Below are positions 2,446 through 46,767 of a stretch of DNA of 46,767 nt, in pieces (position 1 is the first letter of the stretch; every line of letters begins with the position of its first letter). The DNA comes from an uncultured Clostridia bacterium (GTDB lineage Bacteria; Bacillota; Clostridia; Christensenellales; UBA1242), in assembly GCA_946630785.1 (NCBI GenBank), contig CAMOZC010000002.1, positions 1 through 46,767 on the forward strand, written 5' to 3'. Both the position numbers and the translations under genes were made by a program. A model generated the notes under the pieces. The model did no database searches. It was not told the origin of the DNA and saw nothing but the letters and a program-made list of their open reading frames with translations.

Positions 2446-3477
2446 TTACTTGGCTTTTTTGGTTTGGGTTGGTTTCAGCCCAGTTGTCTTTTGTGGAACT
2501 ATCTTGGTCGGTTTTTTAATGTATGGTTTAACCATTGAATCCGCATTATCAACATTTTCGGTATCATATTCCAAAGGAATGCCATAAGTACGTTCGTAAC
2601 ATTTACGCCAAGCCTCAAAGTTAGCCTGTTTCATATATTCCGCATTATCACGCTCATCCAAATCTTTACGCGGAAAAATTGGTGGTAAAATATGAATGGT
2701 ATAGTCGCCAAAATTAACACGACCTTCCGCATCTAAATGTTCTGGCTTATCTTTAATTGTAATAAACAAAGGCACGATGGGACGACGGTATTTAGCGGCA
2801 TAGTGAAACGCACCAGGTTTTAAGACGCGTGGTTTTTTATATTCACGCCACATGGATTGTTCCGGATAAATTAAAATTGGCCATTTCTTACGCAAGAAAT
2901 ATTCCATGGCGTGGTTAAATTTACGCATCACCGACAAACTTAAATTAGCGGGAATCGGCAAGTAACCCGTATTACGTGAAATATTACCAATCACACCTTT
3001 CCAGTTGTTAAAATCCGCCGCGACAAATTTAATATCCATACCGACAGCGGCACGCACCGCAAACGAATCAACTTTACTGATGTGGTTACAAGTAACAATA
3101 TAACCACCAACAATACCAAACAAGTTTGTACGGCCAACCACTTTAAGGTTCGTCAATTCACGATTAATCTTATTGCAATACTTTTTCAGCGCGCGCATGT
3201 ACCAAAAGTGTTTCCAGCGGTCACGATAACGACGACGCAAATAGTTAAAAGTTTCATCGACAGGGTCACAGGCATCATAACTACATTCGTCAGTGTTTTG
3301 GTTAAATTTACCTTCACGTTCATACACTTGACGTCTTTGTACATCTTCATCAAAAATTTCTTGAGGTTCTTTCAAACTATTGACATCTAACATCTGTTTA
3401 ATTTCCTTTATTGCTTTTGTATCTGGGTTTGTTTTTTCGGTCGGCACCAAGTCTTCAATCCTATCCATAGGATACAT
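2446..3477 (-). CDS. lysophospholipid/1-acyl-glycerol-3-phosphate acyltransferase-like (PlsC family)
   Basis: NHISKVD (NHx4D) motif, YPEQSMW, GAFHYAAKYRRPIVPLFI. Lys-rich C-terminus. Its start overlaps the GT2 gene by about 70 bp, so a later start is possible. Confidence 0.85.
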   Translation of the reverse strand: MYPMDRIEDLVPTEKTNPDTKAIKEIKQMLDVNSLKEPQEIFDEDVQRRQVYEREGKFNQNTDECSYDACDPVDETFNYLRRRYRDRWKHFWYMRALKKYCNKINRELTNLKVVGRTNLFGIVGGYIVTCNHISKVDSFAVRAAVGMDIKFVAADFNNWKGVIGNISRNTGYLPIPANLSLSVMRKFNHAMEYFLRKKWPILIYPEQSMWREYKKPRVLKPGAFHYAAKYRRPIVPLFITIKDKPEHLDAEGRVNFGDYTIHILPPIFPRKDLDERDNAEYMKQANFEAWRKCYERTYGIPLEYDTENVDNADSMVKPYIKKPTKIVPQKTTGLKPTQTKKAK

Positions 3478-4367
3478 TTGAACAATTTTTTTGCCAAACG
3501 ATTTTTATATAAGTAGTCACGATAAATGTCAGCAAAGTGTCTCATTCGCGCAATAATTTCCGGATAACGGCGTTTATTTGCTAAATAAACCGAACCGCAG
3601 CAACTAAATGCTGCCCAACCACGGATTGCATCGCGGGCAACGAGATTAGTTTCAGTTTCAGACAATTCTAACAATTTATTAATCAAATTAACATTATTTT
3701 CAGAAAACTTTTTGTGCACTTCAGAACCCGCACGCCAAGAATAACAATACAACTTTGCATTGATACACACCATTTTTTGGCAACGCTTTAAATATCCTAA
3801 ATTAAATAGCAAATCTTCACCATAACAATATTTAGGGTCAAAGCGCAACGGTTCGTCATTGTTAATTAAATCAACACGAAACATTTTATTCCAAAGCACC
3901 AACCCCGCTTTGTAAATCAGTTGTGGTACCATTTCATCGTTTTCATAAGTACGAGTAGTTTTACGCCAAGGAGAAAACACCGGAAAACGAACTGCGCGGA
4001 TAGCAAACCGACAAACACTCAAATCAGCATGATTTGTGATTAAGGCTTGATATAGTTTTTCCACATAGTTGGCTTTAATACAGTCATCACTATCAACCCA
4101 AACACAATACTGTCCATGACAGTGATCCAATAAAAAGTTACGTGTCTTGGCAACATTTTTTTCGTTGACCTTCTGCAACAAAACAATCCGACTATCACTG
4201 TCGGCATATTGTTTGGCAATTTGGTAGGTATTATCAACAGAACCATCATCCACAACAATAATTTCCAGATTTTGATAAGTTTGTTTCAAAACAGAACGTA
4301 AGCAACGACCAAGATATTTTTGTACGTTGTATGCTGGTATTAAAACACTAATCAAATCGTTTTCCAC
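3408..4367 (-). CDS. glycosyltransferase family 2
   Basis: ISVLIPAYNVQKYLGRCLRSVLKQTYQNLEIIVVDDGSVDNT ... WVDSDD. Confidence 0.93.
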   Translation of the reverse strand: MENDLISVLIPAYNVQKYLGRCLRSVLKQTYQNLEIIVVDDGSVDNTYQIAKQYADSDSRIVLLQKVNEKNVAKTRNFLLDHCHGQYCVWVDSDDCIKANYVEKLYQALITNHADLSVCRFAIRAVRFPVFSPWRKTTRTYENDEMVPQLIYKAGLVLWNKMFRVDLINNDEPLRFDPKYCYGEDLLFNLGYLKRCQKMVCINAKLYCYSWRAGSEVHKKFSENNVNLINKLLELSETETNLVARDAIRGWAAFSCCGSVYLANKRRYPEIIARMRHFADIYRDYLYKNRLAKKLFKCILWIGLKTWCRPKKQTQIQKQ

Positions 4368-25843: not shown

Positions 25844-28558
25844 TTATTTGCGGCGGCGTTTGCTAATCACAATGCCAAATACAATGCCACCGACCAACAG
25901 GATTCCGCCGGATGTTCCCAAGATGCCCCATAGCAAACCATTATTGTTTTGGTTGTTCACTGTGGGGTTTTCTTCCGTGGGGTCTGCCGGGTCATCTGGG
26001 AAATCTGGATTGTTACTTTTCCATTTCGCGGTTAAGGTCATATTGTCGGTTACGAATTCGTCAAAATTATACTCTTCATTATTTAGGTACCAACCGAGGA
26101 AATCATATCCTTCACGAACTGGGTCAGATGGGCGGGAAATTTTGGTATTCCAATTTACAGTTTGTGGTAAGACTGAACTACCTTGTTTACTGTCAAAGGT
26201 TACCGTGTATTGGTTAATGGTCCATTGAGCAAATAAACCAAAATCTTCGGTTACTGGGGTGTTGAAATCATATGGATGTTGGTATAAATCATCTGTGAAC
26301 CAACCCACAAAGGTATAACCTTCTTTGGTTGGGTCGGTTGGTCTTTGAACTGGAGTACCATAGTCTACCGTTTGACTTCCGGTATGGGTTCCGTTTTGCC
26401 ACCAGAATTCAACGGTGTATTGGTTAATATTCCATTTCGCATATAAAGTCATTGAACCCGTAATTGGTGTACTAAAATCAAACTCGTCGGTTAAAGTTGC
26501 ATTTGTATACCAACCAGCAAAAGTGTAATGTTCTTTGGTTGGATCGGTTGGTCTTGTTATCGTTTGTCCGTTTTCAACTTCTTGAGCAGATACTGCACTA
26601 CCACCGTTAACGTTAAATGATACGATGTAAACATTTTCCCATTTAGCAAATAAGGTAATGTTTTCCGTAATTAAGGTATTAAAATCAAATGATTCCGCAT
26701 CTTGTAAATCTCTGTACCAGCCTTTGAAATTGGCACTGGCTCTGGTGGGGTCAGTTGGACGAATGGCTTTCTCATTATAATTTACCGGTTGTTCTACTAA
26801 TGCATCGCCGTTACATGCGTCAAAGGTAACTGTGTAAACGTTAATATCCCAGTCGGCAATTAAATTCATATCTTCTGTAATTGGATTATTGAAATCATAG
26901 GCTACACCATCTTTTAACCAACCTTTAAAGGTGTAACCTGTACGGGTAGTTACAGGTGAACTAATTACAGTATTGTAATCTACCGTTTGATTTGAAACTG
27001 CACTACCATTATTACTGTTTAAGGTAACGGTATATTTATTTACTATCCAATCTGCTGTTAAATTTATATTACCTGTTACCGGTGTATTGAAATTATATTC
27101 ACTGTTGTTTAATAACCATTTCTTAAAAGTATATCCCGTACGGGTTGGAGCTTCCGGACGGCTTACTTTGTTGTTGTAATCTACGGTTTGACTGGCTACC
27201 ACACTACCATTGTTGCTGTCAAAGGTAATTGTATAATGGTTAATTTCCCATTTTGCAATTAAATTCATATCTTCCGTAATTGGATTACTGAAATCATAGG
27301 CTACACCATTATTTAACCATCCTTTAAAAGTATAACCCGTACGGGTGGTGACTGGTGAATTAATTACTGTACCATAATCCACGGTTTGACTGGCAACCGC
27401 ACTACCGCTGTTACTGTCAAAAGTTACTGTGTATTGGTTGATTTCCCATTTAGCATATATAGTAATATCATATTTAACTGGTGTATTAAAAGTAAATGGT
27501 TGAGTATATTGTTCGTCTAAATACCAACCGCTAAAACAGTGTCCGGCTTTTTCTGCGGTTGGCTCACTGGCGAATTCACCAAAATCAATTACTTGGTCGG
27601 GAACTTCTGTTCCGCCCATGGTATTGAAGGTCACTGTGTTTTGCTCCGCACCATAATGTAATTTGCTTGCATATGATTGCAACTCTGTATTGGTCATTAA
27701 ATCCGGATTACGAACAATAATTTCGGTTAAGCCACTGCAATCACGGAACGCGTAACTGCCAATACTGATCACTCCTTCGGGTATCGTAATACTTGTTAAA
27801 CCACTGCAACCTTCGAACGCGTAATTGCCAATACTGGTAACTCCTTCCGGTATCGTAATACTTGTTAAGCCACTGAAACCACGTAACGCGTAATCGCGAA
27901 TACTAGTCACACCTTCGGGTATGACGGTATTTTGACAACCATAGAGCAATGTATTAGATGATTTTTCAATAATACAGTTACATTCATGGCCTTCATTGTC
28001 TTGGCTGGTATATTTAGTATTGTTGGGGTCAACAGTGATACTTGTTAAACCACTGCAAGCAGAGAACGCGTAACTGCCAATGCTGGTCACACTTTCGGGT
28101 ATCGTAATACTTGTTAAGCCACGGCACCAACAGAACGCGTAATTGCCAATACTGGTTAATTGAGAATTCTCAGCAAAAGTAACACTCGTTAAACCACTGC
28201 AATTCTTGAACGCGCGAGCGCCAATACTGGTCACTCCTTCGGGGATCGTAATACTCGTTAAACCACTACAACAATCGAACGCGTAACTGCCAATACTGGT
28301 CACGGTAATATTTGCGGGAATTTCCACGCGGTATTTTGCATGGTTTTGAATCCATGTTTTTCCGTTCGCGTTAAACGCACCACTATTAGTTCCATCGCCC
28401 AAAACACCATTGGTAATATTTAAACAATCAACCGGCACCACTGGAATTTCTTCACTGTCCGCGCTGGCCATAGGTCCCACGGTAAACACCAACGCCAGTG
28501 ACGCCACCACCATTAACACGACCGCACTTAAAATGGCTATAATTGATTTTTTCTGCAT
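25844..28558 (-). CDS. BspA-like LRR surface protein with eight InlB B-repeats and C-terminal TM anchor
   Basis: Signal peptide; CSGLTSITIPEGVTSIG repeats; eight NxYTVTFDSNxGSxVxxQTVxYxxxxxxPxxPTRxGYTFxGW...ITLxAKW units; TM then SKRRRK. Confidence 0.95.
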   Translation of the reverse strand: MQKKSIIAILSAVVLMVVASLALVFTVGPMASADSEEIPVVPVDCLNITNGVLGDGTNSGAFNANGKTWIQNHAKYRVEIPANITVTSIGSYAFDCCSGLTSITIPEGVTSIGARAFKNCSGLTSVTFAENSQLTSIGNYAFCWCRGLTSITIPESVTSIGSYAFSACSGLTSITVDPNNTKYTSQDNEGHECNCIIEKSSNTLLYGCQNTVIPEGVTSIRDYALRGFSGLTSITIPEGVTSIGNYAFEGCSGLTSITIPEGVISIGSYAFRDCSGLTEIIVRNPDLMTNTELQSYASKLHYGAEQNTVTFNTMGGTEVPDQVIDFGEFASEPTAEKAGHCFSGWYLDEQYTQPFTFNTPVKYDITIYAKWEINQYTVTFDSNSGSAVASQTVDYGTVINSPVTTRTGYTFKGWLNNGVAYDFSNPITEDMNLIAKWEINHYTITFDSNNGSVVASQTVDYNNKVSRPEAPTRTGYTFKKWLLNNSEYNFNTPVTGNINLTADWIVNKYTVTLNSNNGSAVSNQTVDYNTVISSPVTTRTGYTFKGWLKDGVAYDFNNPITEDMNLIADWDINVYTVTFDACNGDALVEQPVNYNEKAIRPTDPTRASANFKGWYRDLQDAESFDFNTLITENITLFAKWENVYIVSFNVNGGSAVSAQEVENGQTITRPTDPTKEHYTFAGWYTNATLTDEFDFSTPITGSMTLYAKWNINQYTVEFWWQNGTHTGSQTVDYGTPVQRPTDPTKEGYTFVGWFTDDLYQHPYDFNTPVTEDFGLFAQWTINQYTVTFDSKQGSSVLPQTVNWNTKISRPSDPVREGYDFLGWYLNNEEYNFDEFVTDNMTLTAKWKSNNPDFPDDPADPTEENPTVNNQNNNGLLWGILGTSGGILLVGGIVFGIVISKRRRK

Positions 28559-42594: not shown

Positions 42595-43731
42595 ATGAAG
42601 TTTAAAAATATCAAAAAAAATACATTCAACAAAGAAAATTTAATCGCATCTAAAGAACATGAAGAACGCGAGTTCGCAATCTTACGCAGTTATCTGCCTG
42701 ATATTTTCATGACAGAAAACCAGCCAGGTTTAAAATCAGATGAAATTGGTGCAATTCGTGATTTTTATTATGATTTGATTGCTAACATCCGTCGCGAAGA
42801 TGACCGTCCAAAACATATTCACACAGAAGATTACTTACCATATAATACACAAAACGAAAAATGGATGGTTAAATACATTATGCGCACCATTAAAGACATT
42901 ACCAAAGAAAACGAACGTGCACAAAAAAGTTTCTTAAAAATTCACAAAGAATTTGAAAAAAATCATAAAGTCATTACCAATGATAGATACGACGAATTTT
43001 CACCAGCACAAAAAAATGATTACGAAGAAAAATATGATGAAATCGTTTTAGTAGATTCCAACAAGCACACCAAAATTTCTGCTAAAACCATCCTGAAATT
43101 TATTCAAACCGACCCGGCTTATCAACAAGCACGTACTAATTACACCGTCGGTTTAACCTTGGCTCAAGTTGAATATATGATGAACGCCCAAGAACCAAAC
43201 GAAGTTTTAACTCGTCGCCGCTATAGTCGTACCGAACCATATTCAGTTGAAACCATTTATCACCCCAGTATTTCACGCTTCAAAAAAGATACTGATAAAT
43301 TATTCCGTAACGGTGCCTTTGTCGGCTTAACACAAAACCTGCATCTTGACCCCGAAGCCGTTGAATACGGCTTGGAAAAATACGCCGACATTTGGCTTGA
43401 CCAAACCATGAGTGATGCCTATTACAACCAATACATGGTTGATGTAAACGACATGGATGCAATGCATTATAAAGAATGGTATTTCGATACTGTACTTCAT
43501 CAATTCCGTAATGATTGGATGACAAAACGTAAACACGAATACGAACAAGAACACCGCGCAGTTATGCAAAAAGCCGGTCGCAGATTAATGAATCTTGCAC
43601 CTGAAGCAGTAAAAGCTTTAAATTCACGTGTTGATATGTTAAATGAACGCTTCCAAGAAATGGTTATCAAATTCAACGCGAAGAAAACTCACACCTTCGA
43701 CAACGATAGAAATGCCGATATCACTTTGTGA
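42595..43731 (+). CDS. uncharacterised protein, paralogue of the divergent neighbour
   Basis: GLEKYADIWLDQTMSDAYYNQY...HEYEQEHRAVMQKAG aligned with the 41578-42477 product. Confidence 0.75.
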   Translation: MKFKNIKKNTFNKENLIASKEHEEREFAILRSYLPDIFMTENQPGLKSDEIGAIRDFYYDLIANIRREDDRPKHIHTEDYLPYNTQNEKWMVKYIMRTIKDITKENERAQKSFLKIHKEFEKNHKVITNDRYDEFSPAQKNDYEEKYDEIVLVDSNKHTKISAKTILKFIQTDPAYQQARTNYTVGLTLAQVEYMMNAQEPNEVLTRRRYSRTEPYSVETIYHPSISRFKKDTDKLFRNGAFVGLTQNLHLDPEAVEYGLEKYADIWLDQTMSDAYYNQYMVDVNDMDAMHYKEWYFDTVLHQFRNDWMTKRKHEYEQEHRAVMQKAGRRLMNLAPEAVKALNSRVDMLNERFQEMVIKFNAKKTHTFDNDRNADITL

Positions 43732-43980: not shown

Positions 43981-44037
43981 GTGTGCTTGTCTATGGCGGA
44001 GCGAAGCGACGCCACTTGTATATATAGACAAGCACAC
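43981..44037. repeat. long hairpin: 14-bp perfect inverted repeat with inner stem
   Basis: GTGTGCTTGTCTAT ... ATAGACAAGCACAC, inner TGGCG-gagcgaagcga-CGCCA. No adjoining T run. Confidence 0.85.
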
Positions 44038-44075
44038 GTTTAACTGCCAAATTAATAAATTGATAAGTTTTTTTA

Positions 44076-45065
44076 TTATCCCTTACAACCAGTCCAAAAT
44101 TTGTTCACATAATCTTTTTCAATTGATAGTTTTAATTCATCTACTTCTTTATTTGAGATTCCTTTATTTTCCAAAATAGATAATAATTTATTATTTCTTT
44201 CTTTCAATTTATCAATTTGTTCTTTAGTTGGAATAACATTGCTTTTTATCGAATTGCAATGTTGACATACATAAACTAAATTCCAAATATCGTCGCTATA
44301 CATATATGACCAGGGTATGACATGGTCAATAGAAAGTTCTGTATTTTGAGTTTCTTTTCCGCAAATAAAACAATGGTGATTTGGATTTTCAATATCCAAA
44401 TAAGTTTTAAACTTTGATAAAGAATTTCTTTTAATATTTCTCTCGTCAATAATTCTAACTTTTTTGTTTATTCTTGGTGAACTATTAAAAGTTTCCAATA
44501 TCAAACTCCACCGGTAATTAATTAAATCGTATAAATCTTGTTCATTATTTTTTAATATTTGGGCGTTACATTTTTTAATAATTAAAGAGTTATCACCTTT
44601 TGTATATTGATATAATTTAGGTGAATTATCTTCAATGTTATCAAATCGCCAACTAACATCAAATTTTAAAGTTCGTTCTATATTGTTTATGGTTTTCTCA
44701 TAATCTGCTTTTAAGCCAATATTTGAAAATCTATCTTCAACTTTTTCAAATACTTCAGGCTGTTTTTTGCCGATAGTAATAAAATATTTTTCAATCAAAT
44801 TTTTTGTTAACGACAAAATAACTGGTGGCTTTTTTAAGTTGCTACCTTGAACTAAATCAAAGAAAATAGTCTGATTCCAGTAGTATTTTAAAAACTTAAA
44901 CGTAATATCGTGTAATGTAATTACAATATTATCTTCATTTAATTCTTTAGTTGAACATAATTCAACAATTGATTTTGCCCAAGCCATCTTGTAAGTATTA
45001 TCATAGTTACAAGACCTAATAATTTTAGTAAAGCGGTTATAAAACTTATTTTCCATCGTCCACAC
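44076..45065 (-). CDS. HNH endonuclease domain protein
   Basis: HHCFICGKETQNTELSIDHVIPWSYMYSDDIWNLVYVCQHCNSIKSN; start may be 45056. Confidence 0.85.
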   Translation of the reverse strand: MWTMENKFYNRFTKIIRSCNYDNTYKMAWAKSIVELCSTKELNEDNIVITLHDITFKFLKYYWNQTIFFDLVQGSNLKKPPVILSLTKNLIEKYFITIGKKQPEVFEKVEDRFSNIGLKADYEKTINNIERTLKFDVSWRFDNIEDNSPKLYQYTKGDNSLIIKKCNAQILKNNEQDLYDLINYRWSLILETFNSSPRINKKVRIIDERNIKRNSLSKFKTYLDIENPNHHCFICGKETQNTELSIDHVIPWSYMYSDDIWNLVYVCQHCNSIKSNVIPTKEQIDKLKERNNKLLSILENKGISNKEVDELKLSIEKDYVNKFWTGCKG

Positions 45066-45363
45066 TCTCTAAAAAGATTTTTTTCTTAAAACTACCTCTT
45101 TTTTCGTTTTTGCTATTTCTAATCTTTTCAAAATCGGTATAGTCAATTTTTTTAGCATCAAGTATTGCTCTTAAAACTTCTTCTAAATCAGCCAATTCTT
45201 CAACATCGCCACTTTCTAAATACTCTTTAAGTTCTTCTTCTAGTTTTATATTTAAACTTTTTAGGTATTCTTCATTATTTAATATTTTTGTAACACAGGT
45301 GCTACCATTTTTATTGATTATTTCAGGAATCTTATCCCTAACTAGTTTATTGTAAATTTTCAT
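45046..45363 (-). CDS. MazG-like all-alpha NTP pyrophosphohydrolase (COG4997-type)
   Basis: MKIYNKLVRDKIPEIINKNG ... LEEELKEYLESGDVEELADLEEVLRAI. Confidence 0.85.
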   Translation of the reverse strand: MKIYNKLVRDKIPEIINKNGSTCVTKILNNEEYLKSLNIKLEEELKEYLESGDVEELADLEEVLRAILDAKKIDYTDFEKIRNSKNEKRGSFKKKIFLESVDDGK

Positions 45364-45386
45364 ATTTATCGCCTATATTGGTAGTG

Positions 45387-45406
45387 TATCATAAAACTTT
45401 ATGATA
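45387..45406. promoter_or_regulatory. perfect 9-bp inverted repeat TATCATAAA-AC-TTTATGATA upstream of the MazG-like gene
   Basis: Direct reading; lies in the 94-bp gap between the kinase and MazG genes. Confidence 0.5.
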
Positions 45407-45457
45407 TTGACATTTAAATATCAAAATAATACTTACAGCTCTCATCAATATTAATGT

Positions 45458-46767
45458 TTAAATTAAATTAGTAATTTTCTTTTCCAATTCAACAGTTTCT
45501 TCATTGTCCAATGCAGCTATTCTTCTCCGAATATATGATGATTTACTTTTATATGCTTCCTGTTGAGTCCCTGATTTTAATCCTAAACTTTCACAAATAC
45601 TTGGCAAATCATTAGCGGAATAATTTTTTAAATTTTCAATTATATTAAGTTTAATTTGTTTAATATCACAATCATTATTATTTGTTAAATCTTTAATAAT
45701 TTCATTTACGGTTTTATATCTTTCAGATAAATTAGTAGTTACGCATTTTGAAATAATATTATGCATTTTAGTTGAACCAGTAGATATATTTTGTTTTCCA
45801 AAATAAATATAATTTATCATCATCCCAAGCGCGTAAATATCATTTTGAGCATTGTAATTTTCAAATTTTTCCAAACAGGGATCTATAAAAGTTCCTTTTA
45901 TAGATGAATCACTACTCGTAATCTTGTTGTTTTCATCTTTGATTAAACCAAAATCTGAAATTTTTAAAAATAATAAGTCATCGCATTTTGTATCTATTAG
46001 AACATTATTATAACTTATGTCTCTATGATATAAACCTCTATCATGTAAGAATTTAATGCCATCTAATAGTTGATAAATTAAATTTTTTCTCTGTTCATTA
46101 GTAAGTTTTGTATTATTAGAATCTATAAATTTTTTTAGCGATGTTCCACAATAATCCATTGTATAAGAATTGTCATCAAAATATTTATAAACTCGAACAA
46201 TGTTCGGATGTGGGTTTGATTTCATCAACCTATATTCTTGCTTAAATCTTATTAAATCTTTCTCAGTGGCATTTTTCTTAAGTCTTTTTAAGACAAATTT
46301 TTCATTATAATCTTCATCCTTATATTCAAAAACATTTGCATAAGACCCAGAACCTATTAGCTTTAATTGATATGACGATTTATTTTTCTTTACTATTTGA
46401 TTTTCAGCAAAGACAAAGATTGGAATTGTATAATACAATTCAATTTTCTCCACATGTCTTGGAATCTCACTACCATAGTATTTATTTATAAAAGTCTTAC
46501 AAAGTTTTATTTTTTCATCATAATAATCATCCAGTTTGAATTTATATTCAGTATCTTCAAGATTTTTTTGCAATCTCTCAATTATCTCAAAAATATATAA
46601 TAAACTCCTACTATCTTCTGCATGATAGTATGCAGTATATTCCTCGGTAGGTAATTTTGTATTCAAAGATTTAATTTCTATTAATAAGTTAAAATGCACT
46701 GTAGAAAAAATTTCGGAAACTTTTTGATTCCCAAAATTTCTATATAAATCAATAAAATCTAAATGCT
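45458..46767 (-). CDS. eukaryotic-like Ser/Thr protein kinase with N- and C-terminal extensions, 5' end beyond window
   Basis: IGSGSYANVFEYKDEDYNEKFVLKRL, LYHRDISYNNVLID, ISDFGLI, DIYALGMMINYI. The called start at 46699 is GTG and the frame stays open to 46767 (HLDFIDLYRNFGNQKVSEIFST-V...), so the CDS probably continues off the edge. Confidence 0.88.
   Translation of the reverse strand, partial: HLDFIDLYRNFGNQKVSEIFSTVHFNLLIEIKSLNTKLPTEEYTAYYHAEDSRSLLYIFEIIERLQKNLEDTEYKFKLDDYYDEKIKLCKTFINKYYGSEIPRHVEKIELYYTIPIFVFAENQIVKKNKSSYQLKLIGSGSYANVFEYKDEDYNEKFVLKRLKKNATEKDLIRFKQEYRLMKSNPHPNIVRVYKYFDDNSYTMDYCGTSLKKFIDSNNTKLTNEQRKNLIYQLLDGIKFLHDRGLYHRDISYNNVLIDTKCDDLLFLKISDFGLIKDENNKITSSDSSIKGTFIDPCLEKFENYNAQNDIYALGMMINYIYFGKQNISTGSTKMHNIISKCVTTNLSERYKTVNEIIKDLTNNNDCDIKQIKLNIIENLKNYSANDLPSICESLGLKSGTQQEAYKSKSSYIRRRIAALDNEETVELEKKITNLI

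Follow-up and report, generated by a model that had tools for sequence, protein, structure and literature searches.

Do three adjacent genes that share a strand, a contig end and an unusually low content of guanine and cytosine (GC) constitute a single defence system? The question is raised by contig CAMOZC010000002.1 of an uncultured Clostridia bacterium (assembly GCA_946630785.1). The contig is complete at 46,767 bp and was analysed whole, so that the window, as it is termed here, ends with it at position 46767. A first-pass annotation had proposed that a serine/threonine kinase, a MazG-like pyrophosphohydrolase and an HNH endonuclease, encoded near the contig end by three consecutive open reading frames (ORFs) on the minus strand, form one system. 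Comparison with other genomes upholds one part of this proposal and not the other: the MazG-like gene and the HNH gene overlap and are conserved as a pair, while the gene neighbourhoods argue against the kinase as a component. The genes concerned are as follows.

44076..45065, minus strand: HNH nuclease gene, 329 amino acids, GTG start; the core of the module
45046..45363, minus strand: gene for a MazG-like (COG4997-type) nucleoside triphosphate (NTP) pyrophosphohydrolase, 105 amino acids, ATG start
45458..46765, minus strand: serine/threonine kinase gene, 435 amino acids, open at the contig end; judged to be a separate neighbour

The HNH and MazG-like genes overlap by 20 bp if HNH translation begins at the GTG, or by 11 bp if it begins at an ATG three codons later, in agreement with the earlier estimate of about 11-20 bp; the kinase and MazG-like genes are separated by 95 bp. 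Nine close relatives of the HNH gene, the window included, have a readable upstream flank. In eight of them (the window and loci L033-L039) a MazG-like gene lies directly upstream, mostly overlapping, the exception being L040, the downstream side of which is unread. The amino-acid sequences encoded by the two genes are strongly constrained, the proportion of synonymous differences (pS) between the window and L033 or L034 being 0.62-0.74 and that of nonsynonymous differences (pN) 0.14-0.18. The kinase, by contrast, stands beside the HNH gene in none of the close relatives other than the window, and adjoins no other HNH-family locus examined, with the exception of one island, L140 (1625-10959), attributed to Clostridium from its gene content. 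There a kinase gene (43% identical), an HNH gene and a MazG-like gene fall within about 9 kb, in the order MazG-like, NERD-HRDC, HNH, HamA, HamB and kinase, followed by more genes of defence type that include a Ppl-type PHP-ATPase gene. The NERD gene separates the MazG-like gene from the HNH gene, and the Hachiman genes separate the HNH gene from the kinase. This interspersed order implies that the genes share defence islands, and not that they belong to one operon; a contiguous triple was not found beyond the window. Judged by the condition set in the first-pass annotation, namely failure of the genes to co-occur outside this genome, the three-gene proposal fails, whereas the pair holds up.

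The kinase is in all likelihood a separate gene next door to the pair, of the abortive infection (Abi) type or solitary. Pfam Pkinase matches residues 134-360 (6.5e-37), with the HRD and DFG motifs present. These limits leave about 130 residues before the domain and about 70 after it, bearing out the suggestion that the kinase domain is flanked on either side by non-kinase sequence. When the protein is aligned with its homologues in L093 and L140, about 18 residues appear to be missing from the N-terminus, which is cut because the window is the entire contig. The C-terminal extension had been likened to modules of Abi proteins:

45461..45682, minus strand: kinase C-terminal module, residues about 362-435, an abortive-infection-type helical module

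The likeness is supported by tblastn matches, down to 2e-7, to proteins annotated 'abortive infection family protein'; in a comparison with a named Abi domain (AbiJ-type), the C-terminus gave the tblastn value of 2e-7 without a Pfam match. The module is absent from the closest kinase homologues, which end near residue 362. A search of 246 further genomes from this family yielded no close or strong homologue of the kinase. The nearest homologues are solitary genes, carried by Sarcina (41%) and Campylobacter (38%) plasmids and, in L141, by a chromosome from the same class. Because the kinase is absent beside other HNH loci and has solitary plasmid homologues, it was rejected as a component of the system.

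Wider sampling covered 62 HNH-family loci from Bacillota, Pseudomonadota, Actinomycetota, Spirochaetota, Bacteroidota and Cyanobacteriota. In 30 of these a partner gene lies on the same strand within 150 bp of the HNH gene, being MazG-like in 13, a small S-adenosylmethionine (SAM) methyltransferase gene in 14 and a HIT gene in three; at 11 further loci the partner is more distant or on the opposite strand. Adjacency of the nuclease to these three enzyme families therefore recurs in unrelated lineages, and in L060 (754-2427) a small SAM methyltransferase is fused in front of the HNH-family nuclease in a single protein of 557 residues. The partner types interleave on the HNH tree, with at least eight changes, which implies that partners were swapped repeatedly. 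The motifs of all three partner families are intact by inspection (HxHxHxx in HIT, the glycine-rich SAM loop in the methyltransferases, EExxE...ExxD in MazG), suggesting that partner catalysis probably matters. Judged from these arrangements, the HNH nuclease and its partner very probably act as one functional pair. Just downstream of the HNH-family gene in L055 lies an ADP-ribosylglycohydrolase-like gene (2551-3489), a single case, assigned by its sequence, that is possibly a fourth partner type.

Both active sites of the window pair are conserved. Pfam HNH (PF01844) matches the nuclease at residues 232-276 (2.3e-10, 40.9 bits against a cut-off of 21.4), and the metal-binding and catalytic residues that characterise the superfamily are intact:

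44229..44372, minus strand: HNH domain, residues 232-279, with D247, H248, N262 and N271

The spacing of these residues is that of D839, H840, N854 and N863 in SpCas9. Among 54 aligned relatives, H248 is found in all 54 and D247, N262 and N271 in 53 each; the full set is kept in 52, the exceptions being a frameshifted copy (L006) and L075, a copy without a partner that has lost catalytic residues. The closest PDB sequence matches of the protein are Cas9 HNH domains (3e-13). In an AlphaFold2 (AF2) model with a mean predicted local distance difference test score (pLDDT) of 81.7, the N-terminal 200 residues fold into a largely helical domain, in which Y25, K26, W63 and Y152 are nearly invariant across the 54 relatives. 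Foldseek comparison of this model returned weak matches to Cas9 HNH alone (E >0.005) and no convincing PDB match for the N-terminal domain. A strong HNH match occurs in four of 297 genomes of the bacterial family, and the close relatives, at 40-72% identity, come from Clostridia and Bacilli/Erysipelotrichia assemblies. Viral contigs contained no relatives of the window HNH protein or of the window kinase; queried with the HNH profile and an Acinetobacter member, they yielded Acinetobacter methyltransferase-HNH pairs and one relative from a longer subfamily. In phage records the matches were confined to the HNH domain, and in PHROGs they were to general HNH families only. Frameshifts or nonsense codons are present in the HNH-family copies of L006, L037, L038, L044, L057 and L079, which suggests either frequent inactivation, as might follow from a cost, or assembly errors.

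The 105-residue partner in the window itself matches nothing in Pfam, neither MazG nor any other family. It carries the EExxE...ExxD metal-binding motif of the all-alpha NTP pyrophosphohydrolases (MazG/COG4997), which is present in 44 of 44 MazG-like relatives; the spacer within this motif is shorter than in canonical MazG. A Rhodococcus relative matches phosphoribosyl-ATP pyrophosphohydrolase (PRA-PH; E 1e-4), and the MazG-like profile gives a weak match to HisIE PRA-PH (0.0034). Modelling predicts four helices with confidence (pLDDT 94); for this model Foldseek lists PRA-PH and MazG chains, none of them significant (E > 1). Among 197 genomes of the family, 32 contain MazG-like genes, which are next to an HNH gene in just three (the window, G090 and G113). 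Since the dependence is one-sided, MazG-like genes being common without HNH, the nuclease would appear to recruit, or to travel with, an enzyme that also lives independently. HNH-linked and stand-alone copies are intermixed on the MazG-like tree, so this tree was dropped as proof of a co-inherited pair. Solitary MazG-like genes in L108, L111 and L112 (1501-1827) are nearly identical to the HNH-linked copy of L033, and in L112 a different gene overlaps the 3' end of the MazG-like gene, as if downstream partners were exchanged too.

The surroundings of the HNH family include many defence genes. AbiL genes lie near the HNH gene in L033. L035 (2066-8975) and L036 (1007-8149) contain a PF12643 MazG-like gene, a type IV mREase (DUF3427 helicase), NUDIX, a Schlafen-3 helicase, a COG4997-like MazG gene and HNH, so that two MazG-type enzymes and a NUDIX protein are found within one defence operon. 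Other settings are Hachiman (L140), BREX (L046), CRISPR type I-Fv (L050), McrBC (L100), an AAA-ATPase/HNH pair (L043), and DUF4007 with a cysteine desulfurase, which is Dnd-like (L103, L105). Because this list is long and varied, a role in defence is the natural reading of the HNH-partner module, and is considered probable. The explanation favoured overall, with rather less assurance, is a two-gene module in which an HNH nuclease is joined to an exchangeable small enzyme and which would serve as anti-phage or anti-plasmid cargo of defence islands.

Several observations weigh against this explanation. No recognised separate partner is present at 21 of the 62 HNH loci (one of which is the L060 fusion, and some of which have unread sides), and the partner must therefore be regarded as common yet not proved obligatory. 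About 30 of 33 MazG-like matches in the family are without a neighbouring HNH gene, near-identical copies among them. In the larger loci a partner is encoded by 21 of 63 HNH-adjacent ORFs but by only 6 of the 311 ORFs at other positions in those loci (p 3e-13; odds ratio 25), a test that is partly circular, as the partner families were picked after being sighted beside HNH, and in which the loci are non-independent. The predicted MazG fold is assigned from the motif and weak profile matches. The defence settings, finally, are a plain listing, made without comparison to a random background.

Comparison with known systems agrees with the statement in the first-pass annotation that no named system was recognised, in that PADLOC, NCBIfam and Pfam hold no model of a MazG-like and HNH pair. 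Cas9 and IscB share with the window nuclease the HNH domain and the D-H...N...N catalytic spacing. However, the window protein, at only 329 residues, has a different N-terminal domain and is without RuvC, the bridge helix and the RNA-guide parts. It was rejected as a member of either group on equivalog scores far below the cut-off (IscB, 34.3 against 175 bits; Cas9, 21.4 against 100). Septu (PtuAB) is likewise a small defence operon that encodes an HNH protein, and PtuB profiles match a stretch of the window protein, but this stretch is limited to residues 231-277 (about 50). With a small-enzyme partner instead, and no PtuA ATPase among the readable window neighbours, the pair is not Septu. 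The COG4997-type MazG proteins and other all-alpha NTP pyrophosphohydrolases resemble the partner in the EExxE...ExxD motif, the all-helical predicted fold and the distant PRA-PH match; the window protein differs in its coupling to a nuclease, while stand-alone copies are common. The kinase resembles Stk2, PD-T4-6 and MAD6 in having an intact serine/threonine kinase domain with flanking domains and an association with defence. Assignment to any of these was rejected, because the match is to the kinase domain only (the Stk2 profile at 120-373 of 500; NCBIfam MAD6 at 73 against 460 bits).

As regards the literature, the DefensePredictor study names a MazG NTP pyrophosphohydrolase as one of several nucleotide-modifying defence domains that are predicted but unvalidated, and its main text, in the relevant parts, gives no account of this HNH family or of the exchange of methyltransferase and HIT partners (PMC13092281). 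HNH endonucleases act as extra effectors of BREX and Dnd/phosphorothioate loci, where they have ParB, winged helix-turn-helix (wHTH) or SRA domains or are paired with an OLD ATPase; the passages on them mention no pairing with MazG, HIT or methyltransferase (PMC12839542, PMC10853773). The family of the window nuclease, like these auxiliary effectors, has members next to BREX and DUF4007/desulfurase genes. Within the literature found, which excluded subscription papers and supplementary tables, no report joins a MazG, HIT or methyltransferase gene with an HNH defence gene. An HNH family that exchanges partners among MazG, methyltransferase and HIT proteins hence appears not to have been described there, and would be kin to the small nuclease-based defence modules.

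Four rival explanations can be set against the two-gene module. That all three genes operate together, the kinase sensing or signalling, the MazG-like enzyme changing nucleotide pools and the HNH protein cutting, would account for the common strand, the 95 bp gap and the shared low GC content, and is consistent with the presence of all three genes within about 9 kb in L140. It is nevertheless very improbable, given the absence of the kinase from beside all other HNH-family loci examined, the interspersed order in L140 itself and the solitary homologues on the Sarcina and Campylobacter plasmids. A toxin-antitoxin-like pair, in which a toxic HNH protein is held in check by a small enzyme that removes or modifies an activating cofactor or signal until phage attack upsets the balance, is also unlikely, if less so. 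The small gene coming first and overlapping the nuclease, the swappable enzyme partners with intact active sites and the mobile, plasmid-borne distribution all accord with it. However, the partner gene frequently lies downstream of the nuclease gene, which is not typical of antitoxins (L042, L056, L058, L062, L076), a partner is lacking at some loci (L043, L052, L084), and the methyltransferase-HNH fusion of L060 would be odd for an antidote.

The nuclease might instead be a homing-type or otherwise selfish endonuclease that has landed beside small accessory genes, as HNH is common as a homing nuclease domain, HNH-family genes are carried on mobile elements, and MazG-like genes are also found without HNH. 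This is very unlikely: the HNH gene overlaps its neighbours and does not interrupt them, the same three enzyme families recur across phyla, with one fusion and frequent defence-gene neighbours, and no homing-type counterpart of the conserved N-terminal domain was found. A role in DNA maintenance, the partner clearing away nucleotides that are damaged or non-canonical and the HNH protein nicking DNA that contains them, draws on the NUDIX and second MazG-like genes in the same operon in L035 and L036, MazG, NUDIX and HIT proteins being classic nucleotide house-cleaning enzymes. It is improbable, since the patchy distribution noted above (four of 297 genomes), plasmid carriage, the low-GC island of the window genome and the defence-gene neighbours point to accessory cargo.

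The segment that holds the three genes is itself distinct in composition, as had been remarked from the sequence. The GC content is 0.258 in the HNH gene, 0.264 in the MazG-like gene and 0.246 in the kinase, against 0.387 at positions 1-43731, and the lowest value among the 40 other coding sequences of the window is 0.317. Because the other contigs of the genome lie at 0.37-0.39, the segment can be regarded as foreign in composition. Two further features are relevant:

43982..44073, no strand assigned: copy of a dispersed short repeat, at the GC step that forms the left edge of the low-GC segment
45387..45406, no strand assigned: perfect 9-bp inverted repeat, TATCATAAA-GT-TTTATGATA, between the kinase and the MazG-like gene

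GC content falls from about 0.40-0.43 to 0.25-0.26 exactly at the dispersed repeat, of which further copies are found on contigs C5, C22, C26 and C7 of the genome; a 14-bp inverted repeat (43981-44037) is also situated at the step. The repeat may mark the border of an acquired island, or else a point of misassembly. A wrong assembly join is conceivable, because the family also has low-GC members (L160), but would leave the conclusion on the pair unaffected, because the evidence for it comes from other genomes. The 9-bp inverted repeat, which lies in AT-rich DNA, is speculatively put forward as a putative operator or promoter region of the pair; in a promoter scan, promoter-like matches were no commoner than in shuffled sequence. 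Adjoining the island, a 378-residue protein (42595-43731) has no Pfam or NCBIfam match. Elsewhere in the window, positions 25844-28558 encode an internalin-like surface protein with TIGR02543 repeats, to which a further member at 5-781 can be added; with 66 matches in a genome of 0.9 Mb, this family is a striking expansion of paralogues.

Under the favoured two-gene explanation, translation of the HNH nuclease would be coupled to that of a small enzyme with nucleotides or a related small molecule as its substrate. The HNH domain would cut the DNA of an invader, or that of its own cell as a form of abortive infection, and the N-terminal domain, with its near-invariant YK, W and Y residues, could serve in recognition or gating. 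The partner might strip or alter nucleotides, perhaps modified ones, which mark the invader or feed its replication; alternatively, it might set a small-molecule signal that licenses the nuclease. Control of the nuclease by partner chemistry, whether by metabolite gating or in a toxin-antidote-like manner, is suggested tentatively. A two-tier attack on modified phage DNA, at the level of both nucleotides and DNA, fits the data about as well and is likewise tentative.

Defence islands often contain nucleotide house-cleaning enzymes that have no assigned role. A more general and more doubtful possibility is an immune module in which a conserved sensor-nuclease, composed of the YK/W/Y domain and HNH, plugs into interchangeable MazG-like, SAM methyltransferase or HIT enzymes, so that the substrate or product of an enzyme, and not a protein or guide RNA, would decide when or what the nuclease cuts. 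The analysis corrects a plausible but wrong grouping of three genes, and whatever feature is common to the MazG-like, methyltransferase and HIT enzymes should reveal what the nuclease senses, or the mark by which its target is known.

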